From: Frankia sp. AiPa1
Lineage (GTDB): Bacteria > Actinomycetota > Actinomycetes > Frankiales > Frankiaceae
NCBI RefSeq assembly: GCF_023243075.1
Contig: NZ_JALKFZ020000004.1
Coordinates: 124,001 to 188,000, forward strand
DNA: 64,000 nt
Reading direction: 5' to 3'
Both the position numbers and the translations under genes were made by a program. The notes beneath the pieces were generated by a model. The model was not told the DNA's origin. It made no database searches and saw nothing but the letters and a program-made list of their open reading frames with translations. Positions 59,617-63,039 of the stretch are shown piece after piece (the stretch's first letter is position 1; each line of letters begins with the position of its first letter).

Positions 59617-59655
59617 GAATGGCCTCCAAGTCACCGGGACGCTGGCGGTCGCTGC

Positions 59656-59682
59656 AACAGTGTGGCGGCGCCATCCCTTCCC
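59656..59682 (-). promoter_or_regulatory. SigR/SigH-like promoter of mrx1
   Basis: On the minus strand GGGAAG (complement at 59677-59682) is followed by 18 bases and GTT (complement at 59656-59658). The consensus of the thiol-stress sigma factors is GGGAAT-N16-19-GTT. The mrx1 start codon is 40 bases downstream. Confidence 0.5.
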
Positions 59683-59711
59683 GCGCCATACCGGTACTAC
59701 CGTGTCGAGGG

Positions 59712-62039
59712 ATGTCCGTACCCACCGCCCCGACGCCCGCGCCCGCTGCCGGCGCTTCGCCCGCGGCAGGCCCGTCCCCGGTCGCACCCGCCTCGGCGAT
59801 CGTCCTGTCGCCCGCCGACGAAGGCCCGGATCTGCTGGCGATGCTGGACCCGGAGCAGCGGGCCGCCGCGGATGCACCGATTGGCCCAGTCTGCATCCTT
59901 GCCGGAGCCGGTACGGGCAAGACACGCACGATCACCCACAGAATCGCGCACATGGTCGTGGATCGCGCGGTTGCGCCCGATCAGATCCTCGCGGTGAGCT
60001 TCACCACCCGGGCGGCCGGTGAGCTGCGCGGCCGGCTGCGGGCGATGGGCGTGCCCGGCGTGCAGGCGCGGACGTTCCATTCGGCGGCGCTGCGCCAGCT
60101 GCAGTACTTCTGGCCGACGGTGGCCGGCGGACCGCTGCCCCGGCTGGAGTCCAGCAAGATCCCGAATATGGCTCGGGCGGCCGGACGGCTGGGACTGCGA
60201 CCCGACCGGCCGGAACTGCGGGACCTGACCGCCGAGGTCGAATGGGCGAAGGTCACGCTGGTCACCCCCGAGGACTATGCGCGCCTGGCCCCGGCGGCGG
60301 GCCGCGAGACCACCATGACGGCGCAGACCGTCGGGCGTCTCTACGGCGCCTACGAGGAGGTCAAGCGGGAGGCCGGCGTCCTGGACATGGAGGATCTGCT
60401 GCTGCTGACCGCGGCCGTGATCGAGGAGCACGGCTGGGTGGCCGGTGAGATCCGCTCGCGCTATCGGCATTTCGTCGTCGATGAGTACCAGGACGTCAAC
60501 CTGCTGCAGCAGCGGGTGCTTGACGCCTGGCTCGGGGACCGTGACAGCCTGTGCGTCGTTGGTGACCCACATCAGACGATCTACTCGTTCGCCGGGGCCT
60601 CCCCGCGATATCTGCTCGAGTTCCCGCGCCGCTATCCACAGGCGACCCTCGTCCGGCTGGTGCGCGACTACCGTTCGACCCCCCAGATCGTGGGACTCGC
60701 CAACCGGCTGGTGACGGCCGGGCCGCGGGCCGAGCTCATCGCCGTCCCCCCGGCCGGCCCCGCACCGGTCTGGCTCGAGTGCGACACCGAGGCGGACGAG
60801 GCGAGCGCCGTCACTGGACGCATCCGCGCTCTGCTCGCCCGCGGCACGCCGGCCAGCCGTATCGCCGTGCTGTACCGGACGAACGCCCAGTCCGAGGCGT
60901 ATGAGACGGCCATCGGCGGCGCCGGTATCGCCTATCTGCTGCGCGGTGGGGAGAAGTTCTTCGCCCGTCCCGAGGTCGTCACGGCGATGCGGCTGTTGCG
61001 GGCCGCCGTGCGTTCCGCCGACACCGACCGGCCCGCCGGGCTCGCCGACACCGTCGCGGACGTCCTCGGGGCTCTGCAGTGGTATCCCCACACCCCCGCG
61101 GCCGGCCCCGGCGCCGAACGAGAGCGGTGGGAGAACCTCGCCGCCCTGCACCGCCTCGCGGAGGATCTCGCCGCGCGGGTCCCTGAGGCCGGCCTCGAGG
61201 AGTTCGTCGACGAACTGGCCGACCGGGCCACCCATGAGCATCTGCCCACGGTCGAAGGGGTGACCCTGTCCACCCTGCACGCGGCGAAAGGCCTGGAATG
61301 GGATGCCGTCTTCCTCGTCGGCCTGACTGAGGGCACTCTGCCGCTGGTCCACGCTCGCACCGCCGAGCAGGTCGAAGAGGAGCGCCGCCTGCTGTATGTC
61401 GGGGTCACTCGGGCCCGCACCCACCTGGTCCTGTCGTGGTCGCTGGCCCGCACCGAGGGCGCCCGGGTACGACGGCCGTCCCGCTTCCTCGAGGATCTAC
61501 GGCCGCCTCGCCGGGGCGGCCGTCCGTCCGGTTCCAGGCCCGGCTCTGGTCCCGGGTCTGGCATCGGTTCCGACGGCCGAGGCGGTGTACGGGGGAGCGG
61601 CGGGTCCGTTGGTGGCCGTGGAAACCACCATCACGGCGCCGACGGTGCGGGCACTGACGGTGCGGGTGCTGACGGCGCGCAAGAGGCGGACCGGGCAGGG
61701 CGTGGTCCTGGCCGGGGGCGTTCCGCGGTGCGCTGCCGGGTGTGTGGCCAGGCGCTCACCGGCGCGCCGGCGCGGGCCGGACGGTGCGCGGACTGTCCCG
61801 CCGACGTCGACGCCGAACTGTATGAACGCCTGCGTACCTGGCGTGCTGCCGCGGCGAAGGACGCTCGCCTGCCGGTCTTCGTGATCATTACCGACGCGAC
61901 GATGCGCGCGATCGCCGAATGCCGGCCCGGCTCGGTCGCCGAGCTGGTGCGCATCCCCGGGATCGGCCAGGCCAAGCTCGACCGCTACGGAGCGGCCGTG
62001 CTGGCCCTGGTCGCCGGCCGCACCCCGCCATCCCCCTGA
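59712..62039 (+). CDS. uvrD2: ATP-dependent DNA helicase UvrD2
   Basis: A 775-residue SF1A helicase. Walker A Lys70 is in GAGTGKTRTI, motif II in VVDEYQDVNLLQQ near 255-267, motif IV DYRSTPQIV, and motif VI YVGVTRARTHLVLSW near 560. A Gly/Arg-rich hinge follows (about 600-665), then a four-Cys patch (CRVCGQ and CADC, about 676-697), and a C-terminal HRDC domain (RLPVFVIITDATMRAIAE, PGIGQAKLDRYG). Cys patch plus HRDC is the mycobacterial UvrD2 layout, where it is essential. ATG at 59712 follows GAGGG closely. Role: unwinding DNA during repair and replication. Confidence 0.95.
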   Translation: MSVPTAPTPAPAAGASPAAGPSPVAPASAIVLSPADEGPDLLAMLDPEQRAAADAPIGPVCILAGAGTGKTRTITHRIAHMVVDRAVAPDQILAVSFTTRAAGELRGRLRAMGVPGVQARTFHSAALRQLQYFWPTVAGGPLPRLESSKIPNMARAAGRLGLRPDRPELRDLTAEVEWAKVTLVTPEDYARLAPAAGRETTMTAQTVGRLYGAYEEVKREAGVLDMEDLLLLTAAVIEEHGWVAGEIRSRYRHFVVDEYQDVNLLQQRVLDAWLGDRDSLCVVGDPHQTIYSFAGASPRYLLEFPRRYPQATLVRLVRDYRSTPQIVGLANRLVTAGPRAELIAVPPAGPAPVWLECDTEADEASAVTGRIRALLARGTPASRIAVLYRTNAQSEAYETAIGGAGIAYLLRGGEKFFARPEVVTAMRLLRAAVRSADTDRPAGLADTVADVLGALQWYPHTPAAGPGAERERWENLAALHRLAEDLAARVPEAGLEEFVDELADRATHEHLPTVEGVTLSTLHAAKGLEWDAVFLVGLTEGTLPLVHARTAEQVEEERRLLYVGVTRARTHLVLSWSLARTEGARVRRPSRFLEDLRPPRRGGRPSGSRPGSGPGSGIGSDGRGGVRGSGGSVGGRGNHHHGADGAGTDGAGADGAQEADRAGRGPGRGRSAVRCRVCGQALTGAPARAGRCADCPADVDAELYERLRTWRAAAAKDARLPVFVIITDATMRAIAECRPGSVAELVRIPGIGQAKLDRYGAAVLALVAGRTPPSP

Positions 62040-62099
62040 TTCCGGGGCCGGGCTCTACGCGCGCCGTGCCGTGACATCCTGTGTCCGGCACGCGACAGA

Positions 62100-62137
62100 G
62101 AAAATACGTTGAGGTTCTCGCGAAGGCCTTCTACCGT
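62100..62137 (+). promoter_or_regulatory. WhiB7-type autoregulated promoter
   Basis: TTGAGG (62109-62114) and TACCGT (62132-62137) form a -35/-10 pair 17 bases apart, facing whiB7. Directly upstream of the -35 lies AAAATA (62101-62106) within GAGAAAATACG, the AT-rich patch that WhiB7's AT-hook contacts in known WhiB7 promoters. Transcription would start near 62144, about 600 bases ahead of the whiB7 start. Confidence 0.6.
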
Positions 62138-62215
62138 TACCCACGACGCCCTACAGACGCCGAGTGGATGCCATGCGCCACCGGCCCTCCGGAGAATCGA
62201 GGTGATCTCGCAGTG

Positions 62216-62641
62216 GTGAACGCTCTGATGGACGGAGTGGGCCGCGAGGTCGTCGGTCTCCGGGGTCTCCCAGCGGCCTCCGGTGCTACCAGTCCGGCCG
62301 TCTGCGTCACCGTTTTGGCCGCCTTTGCCGAGGCCCGTGTGGATGCGAAATCCGCGGTTGTCGGCGGTACCGTCGCGCCGTCTGTCCGCTTTCGGAATAC
62401 CGGCATGTCTGGCATGACCGCGCGTGGCGTCGCTGCGCAATGGTCGCCGGAGCTCGCCGGCCAGCCGATGCGGGTCGCGCTGCCCATCGTCCGGCCGTCC
62501 ACAGGTCAGCTGTCTGCCGCGAAGTCGTATGCCGCAGCGTTGCTCGCTGCCGTTGCTTCGGCACCCGCGGATGCCTACGGCCTGCCGTCCACGCATCGTC
62601 ACCTCATGTCTGGATCCGTCCTCGATCCGCTCCCGGGCTAA
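62216..62641 (+). CDS. Upstream open reading frame in the whiB7 leader
   Basis: A 141-codon frame starts at a double GTG (62213/62216) with GAGG about 8-11 bases upstream and ends at 62641, only 20 bases before the attenuator hairpin. It resembles no family I know; composition is Ala/Val/Gly/Ser-rich with lower third-position GC than the surrounding genes. In other actinobacteria whiB7 leaders carry a translated uORF whose stalling by ribosome-targeting drugs prevents termination. This frame is well placed for that but is longer than the uORFs I know of, and might alternatively be a small hypothetical gene. Confidence 0.4.
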   Translation: MNALMDGVGREVVGLRGLPAASGATSPAVCVTVLAAFAEARVDAKSAVVGGTVAPSVRFRNTGMSGMTARGVAAQWSPELAGQPMRVALPIVRPSTGQLSAAKSYAAALLAAVASAPADAYGLPSTHRHLMSGSVLDPLPG

Positions 62642-62660
62642 CCGCTCCGGAGCCGACGCG

Positions 62661-62692
62661 AGAGCCGCGATCCCCATGGGGATCGCGGCTCT
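62661..62692 (+). terminator. Attenuator-type terminator before whiB7
   Basis: A perfect 32-base palindrome (AGAGCCGCGATCCCCA and its complement) followed by TTTGTCGTTT. This is the strongest intrinsic terminator in the window, and it stands inside the presumed whiB7 transcript, 60 bases upstream of the gene. Confidence 0.8.
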
Positions 62693-62751
62693 TTGTCGTT
62701 TCGCTTCCTTCCATCCGCTCGAAGCCCAACCGTGTCGGAGGTGACACCCCG

Positions 62752-63039
62752 GTGTTCGATCACTCGATCGTCGCCCGGATCGAGCAGGATCGGCTCGTTC
62801 TGCCCTGCTGGGACGTCGATCCGGAGATGTTCTTCGCGGAATCCCCGGCGGACGTGGAGACCGCCAAAGCCGTCTGCCGGGCCTGCCCGGTCCGGGTCGC
62901 CTGCCTGACGGCCGCCCTCGACCGTGCCGAGCCGTGGGGGGTGTGGGGCGGTGAGCTGGTCGTGACCGGCGTCGTCGTTCCGCGTAAGCGTCCCCGCGGC
63001 CGTCCACGGAAGATCCGCCCCGAGGAGGTCGCGGCCTGA
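62752..63039 (+). CDS. whiB7: WhiB7 (WblC) redox/antibiotic-response regulator
   Basis: A 95-residue Fe-S transcription factor that binds the principal sigma factor and activates intrinsic antibiotic-resistance genes. Four cluster cysteines are at 19, 42, 45 and 51 (LPCWDVDP; VCRACPVRVAC), followed by the GVWGG turn and the AT-hook RPRGRPRK near 80-87, which separates WhiB7 from the other Wbl proteins. GTG at 62752 has GGAGG about 11 bases upstream. It follows uvrD2 and mrx1, the usual actinobacterial neighbourhood. The long leader with uORF, terminator and AT-rich promoter element points to attenuation plus autoactivation. Confidence 0.93.
   Translation: MFDHSIVARIEQDRLVLPCWDVDPEMFFAESPADVETAKAVCRACPVRVACLTAALDRAEPWGVWGGELVVTGVVVPRKRPRGRPRKIRPEEVAA

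Follow-up and report, generated by a model that had tools for sequence, protein, structure and literature searches.

A long upstream reading frame in the whiB7 leader of Frankia: comparative evidence for a probable ribosome-controlled attenuator

Why does the leader of whiB7 in Frankia carry a reading frame of some 142 codons, and is that frame kept for its product or for the act of translating it? Attenuation by an upstream open reading frame (uORF) has been described for whiB7/wblC generally; in the published model, a completed uORF hides one arm of an antiterminator and transcription ends, whereas a held-back ribosome allows whiB7 to be transcribed (PMC10727445, PMC11550727, PMC13393426). 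The switch is an actinobacterial one, and its target, whiB7, is a regulator of antibiotic resistance. The Frankia leader is an ordinary but well-preserved member of this known class, and comparison of its sequences makes it very probable that it acts as a ribosome-controlled transcription attenuator of whiB7. What is novel here, and useful, is the comparative evidence bearing on why the uORF is long.

The whiB7 locus and its promoter

In the window, the 64-kb stretch of Frankia sp. AiPa1 DNA analysed throughout, the gene order is a UvrD-like helicase gene (uvrD2-like), the leader and whiB7 (Table 1). The whiB7 product matches the Pfam family Whib (1.4e-16) and, weakly, an AT hook, and it has the WhiB domain, GVWGGE motif and AT hook of a whiB7 orthologue. 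It is 83-94% identical to its counterparts in 12 other Frankia, which with the window's genome form our comparison set of 13 genomes (Frankia sp. QA3 and F. canadensis included). The promoter, uORF, palindrome and whiB7 named in a preliminary description of this DNA are all present where it placed them. The leader RNA matched no Rfam covariance model at gathering score, and the opposite strand gave a chance-level match only.

The AT-rich patch and -35/-10 pair noticed earlier proved to be a real WhiB7-box promoter, laid out as GAAAAT-ACG-TTGAGG-17-TACCGT, that is, GAAAATACGTTGAGG-17-TACCGT. Searching the 64 kb for the pattern GAAAWY-N3-TTG-N18-20-TANNNT returned 62100-62137 as the sole match, with 0 expected from 100 shuffles, and the promoter is conserved in 13/13 Frankia (12 strict, 1 loose). 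As expected of an autoregulated promoter, it fits the published WblC rule by which GAAAWY sits 3 nt upstream of the -35 (PMC7157823). Transcription would start near 62144.

Table 1 Features of the whiB7 leader and flanking genes in the window
Feature	Position	Strand	Remarks
UvrD-like helicase gene	59619-62039		named from its own sequence and its place beside whiB7
whiB7 leader promoter	62100..62137	+	pattern search and conservation
WhiB7/WblC box GAAAAT	62100-62105	+	
-35 TTGAGG	62109-62114	+	
-10 TACCGT	62132-62137	+	
uORF Shine-Dalgarno (SD) GAGGTGATC	62199..62207	+	from sequence
uORF	62213..62641	+	142 codons from GTG 62213; 141 from GTG 62216
GTCACCTC, 8-nt complement to whiB7 SD	62598..62605	+	conserved in Frankia
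Antiterminator 5' half (predicted)	62612..62638	+	last nine uORF codons
Antiterminator 3' half (predicted)	62644..62673	+	contains terminator 5' arm
Intrinsic terminator hairpin	62660..62693	+	15 bp, -30.2 kcal/mol
Palindrome AGAGCCGCGATCCCCATGGGGATCGCGGCTCT	62661-62692		32 nt, perfect
whiB7 SD GAGGTGAC	62738..62745	+	in loop of small GTGTC/GACAC hairpin
whiB7	62752..63039	+	95 aa; WhiB domain, GVWGGE, AT-hook RGRPRK

Extent of the uORF and selection on it

The uORF reported earlier is real, and runs open from GTG 62216 to the TAA at 62639-62641. This GTG is a possible start, yet the relatives begin one codon earlier: the preceding position holds ATG in two of them (L006 and L007) and GTG in most others, at an equal distance from the SD, and GTG 62213 is therefore the likelier start. 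An in-frame GTG at 62081 was rejected because it lies upstream of the promoter. The SD core GAGGTGATCTCG is preserved across the Frankia alignment, with a single base changed in L013.

The length of the open frame was rejected as evidence of translation on its own, since at this GC content a second frame is nearly stop-free too. The frame's history is more telling. In codon-blind nucleotide alignments of three Frankia subclades, 15 of 17 distinct gap segments in the uORF have a length divisible by 3 (binomial p = 4e-6). Both exceptions come from L001, a poorly aligned sequence, where they are near neighbours with a combined length of 6. The frame is intact and SD-led in 13/13 Frankia, at lengths of 91-169 codons. 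The leader has, as members of the attenuator class do, an SD-led uORF selected to stay open.

The preliminary description considered this uORF much longer than those known, having compared it with the mycobacterial leader. Against mycobacteria, where uORFs mostly have about 50 codons, the statement holds; against the class as a whole it does not. Among 92 loci surveyed, the uORF has 37 codons in Rhodococcus globerulus, 66-86 in Pseudonocardia, 88-118 in most Streptomyces and 138-152 in Kitasatospora. An evenly drawn class sample of 118 genomes contained WhiB7 in 89, and 87 loci were read. Of these loci, 82 combine a strong terminator with an SD-led uORF, which ranges from 23 to 160 codons (median 80) and has at least 100 codons in 25/82 and at least 140 in 4/82; since the caller picks the best SD, any single length may be wrong by a few codons. 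The 142-codon uORF is thus long, and within the known range of the class. The window's uORF also has a codon adaptation of 0.525, below all 30 long ORFs of the window that served as the codon-usage reference, and 12.8% rare codons vs 4-8% in relatives.

Substitutions were counted in five phylogenetically disjoint close Frankia pairs. In the middle of the uORF, pS is 0.160 and pN 0.164 (dN/dS 1.03), whereas whiB7 of these pairs has a dN/dS of 0.13; in Streptomycetaceae and their neighbours the corresponding ratios are 0.71 and 0.10. The uORF middle thus preserves its reading frame but does not preserve its peptide. The first 20 codons have a dN/dS of 0.45 (p = 0.04, synonymous vs nonsynonymous) and a nonsynonymous rate half that of the middle (p = 7e-4), which indicates a mild peptide-level constraint. 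The last 18 codons hold 2 synonymous changes in 70 sites, compared with 71 changes over 443 sites for the middle (p = 0.0015), and 12 nonsynonymous changes; so few synonymous changes beside 12 nonsynonymous ones argue for conservation at the level of the RNA.

These patterns bear on the earlier suggestion that the uORF may encode a product in its own right. If the uORF chiefly made a small functional protein of some 140 residues from a transcript shared with whiB7, with regulation as a secondary matter, that would accord with its gene-like GC3 (0.73-0.85) and amino-acid make-up and with the constraint on its first 20 codons. A middle that evolves at a dN/dS of about 1, against the low ratio of whiB7 in these genomes, makes such a product unlikely. 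The variation in length among Frankia and the RNA-level nature of the C-terminal conservation also count against it, as does the uORF's lack of any Pfam family in our search, and we consider a protein-coding role highly improbable. Length and frame of the uORF appear to matter more than the encoded protein.

Terminator, antiterminator and the whiB7 Shine-Dalgarno sequence

The palindrome of the preliminary description is perfect over its 32 nt, with 19 nt separating it from the uORF stop and 59 nt from whiB7; the T-run ascribed to it turned out to be short and interrupted (CTTTGTCGTTT). With its lower stem (62648-62703) the hairpin reaches -41.0 kcal/mol. A Rho-independent terminator with a short T-run is found between uORF and whiB7, as in other attenuators of the class. 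In the class sample, a hairpin occupies the corresponding place at 82/87 loci, and the gap from stop codon to terminator arm stays within 18-26 nt (10th-90th percentile) for short and long uORFs alike. In one genome of the same family (L021), tandem CCGAACCAG-like repeats about 60-230 nt before the whiB7 start stretch the interval between terminator and gene.

Folding of the uORF tail with the terminator 5' arm, the 3' arm being absent, revealed an antiterminator of the kind that the preliminary description proposed looking for. It pairs with 62660-62673, has a minimum free energy of -32.4 kcal/mol for 62600-62678, and is predicted to be mutually exclusive with the terminator, the uORF tail pairing with the terminator 5' arm. 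Such an overlap of the antiterminator with uORF and terminator sequences is a mark of the attenuator class. In 13/13 Frankia this stretch is predicted to fold, at -34 to -41 kcal/mol, into one long antiterminator hairpin, with compensatory changes at only 2 pairs within this set. The stability of the antiterminator exceeds that of the bare terminator hairpin at 92/92 surveyed loci and at 82/82 in the class sample. Against shuffled tails, the mean z over the 92 loci is -2.8, and individual scores within Frankia are weak (-0.2 to -3.4). A locus's own terminator arm pairs better with its tail than swapped arms do (permutation p = 5e-5, 41 distinct arms, shared ancestry still being contained in this p value), and for several Frankia tails the own arm is no better than a swapped one. 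Many unrelated genera have a uORF ending in W(S/G)PPV-stop; it is probably the antiterminator arm (TGGAGTCCACC), and not the peptide, that imposes this ending.

Alternatively, the palindrome might serve as a constitutive terminator or as a bidirectional insulator, and the uORF might be an unrelated chance ORF in GC-rich DNA, given that long chance ORFs are common at this GC content and that another forward frame has 0-1 stops in the same stretches. Indels that keep the frame, a stop-to-hairpin spacing that is fixed across the class, and a uORF tail that is complementary to the terminator arm and co-varies with it all argue against this, and render the idea hardly credible.

When the leader was folded with a ribosome set at one codon after another, the whole antiterminator was predicted to be free to form for positions up to about codon 127, and to be out of reach beyond that point as far as the stop codon. 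Whichever codon the ribosome occupies, equilibrium folding favours the terminator state by some 20 kcal/mol; it was consequently rejected as proof of a switch. As the terminator always wins at equilibrium, the switch would have to be kinetic, taking place during transcription, and kinetics are beyond what folding can prove.

The uORF tail contains another conserved element, GTCACCTC, which is complementary to the whiB7 SD (62738-62745) at 8/8 positions and to the uORF SD at 7/8 plus a G-U pair. Located 44-47 nt before the uORF end and outside the antiterminator in the 13 Frankia, it is identical in 11 of them; the other two carry a C to T change that preserves a G-U pair, and complementarity to the whiB7 SD is kept in 13/13. 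For read-through RNA, this pairing is predicted at values between 0.14 and 0.99. No such anti-SD was found in the uORF tails of other genera of the family, and an anti-SD shared across the class is unsupported; the Streptomyces CACCTT/C sits after the stop, beside the terminator arm. In Frankia, GTCACCTC could limit translation of leaked transcripts. The whiB7 SD also lies in the loop of a hairpin, GTGTC-GGAGGT-GACAC (62733-62748), in most Frankia and several related genera.

Proposed mechanism and relation to known leaders

The uORF-mediated attenuation of whiB7 that had been proposed is well supported by the promoter, the SD, the conserved frame, the terminator and the competing antiterminator, all of them readable in the sequences together with the fixed stop-to-terminator spacing. 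Translation of the uORF itself, the timing of the events and induction of whiB7 by drugs are inferred. WhiB7 and the housekeeping sigma factor would initiate transcription near 62144, and the first ribosome would trail RNA polymerase along the uORF. A ribosome arriving soon enough at the final 15 or so codons would cover 62612-62638 and prevent the antiterminator, so that the hairpin at 62660-62693 could form and transcription would end before whiB7. Under a drug or a shortage of amino acids, the ribosome would be delayed or stalled at any codon up to about 127, leaving the uORF tail free to pair with the terminator 5' arm, and RNA polymerase would enter whiB7. Since the sequence and length of the uORF middle drift freely while the frame does not, the uORF is probably a translated spacer that reports any stall before about codon 127. 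The long middle would set, through its length, the number of stall-reporting codons, and most likely serves to broaden the range of codons over which a stall is signalled. The earlier suggestion that so long a uORF may respond to more kinds of translation inhibition would be compatible with such a wide stall zone.

A more specific sensor might be a codon or nascent-chain motif, perhaps in the first 20 codons, the remaining uORF only linking it to the terminator. Ribosomes exposed to macrolides and lincosamides are often arrested near the beginning of an ORF, which would suit such a motif, as would the lowered nonsynonymous rate of the N-terminal codons. A short uORF would be sufficient for this, yet Frankia retains its long one where the class minimum is 23 codons, and Frankia and Streptomyces have no N-terminal motif in common. 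Sequence-specific stalling seems unlikely to us, and the translated spacer remains the preferred reading. An extension of the latter, in which the uORF is an odometer whose codon number sets the sensitivity to ribosome slowdown and GTCACCTC acts in Frankia as a translational lock on the whiB7 SD of leaked transcripts, is a speculative possibility that we hold to be rather unlikely. If it were true, lineages would tune their sensitivity by in-frame gain or loss of codons, independently of the peptide.

The mycobacterial whiB7 leader (Burian and Thompson 2018; Dinan et al. 2014, PMC4128351) likewise has a WhiB7 promoter, an SD-led uORF with a stem-loop terminator at its 3' end, and whiB7 downstream. 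Its transcription starts about 350 nt upstream of whiB7 (PMC4128351), compared with about 600 nt in Frankia; its uORF has about 50 codons (L050, L052, L054), and its terminator arm is of the GGCCACGG type where Frankia has GCCGCGATCCC. The Streptomyces wblC leader (Lee, Lee and Roe 2022, cited in PMC10727445 and PMC11550727) also has a long uORF in most of the loci surveyed. There too, the uORF tail and the terminator arm make up the antiterminator. The C-terminal tail, however, is RGLEPWRDPA in Streptomyces and RHLxSGSxxDPLPx in Frankia, the middle of the uORF is somewhat more constrained on the Streptomyces side (dN/dS as given above), and the wblC uORF tail lacks the conserved anti-SD of Frankia. 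Amino-acid attenuators such as Corynebacterium ilvB-II (PMC11550727) also let translation of a uORF pick between terminator and antiterminator, and sense the supply of particular amino acids. The Frankia uORF, unlike these, has no particular codon run conserved, and its zone spans about 127 codons.

These analyses bring nitrogen-fixing plant symbionts into the range of a medically relevant resistance switch that has been studied in Streptomyces and mycobacteria, and offer evolutionary evidence that the leader ORF is maintained for being translated and not for its product. They also yield a prediction on how whiB7 could respond to many unrelated translation inhibitors, in that any stall in the first 127 or so codons would count, and a second one, that the length of the uORF should tune sensitivity.
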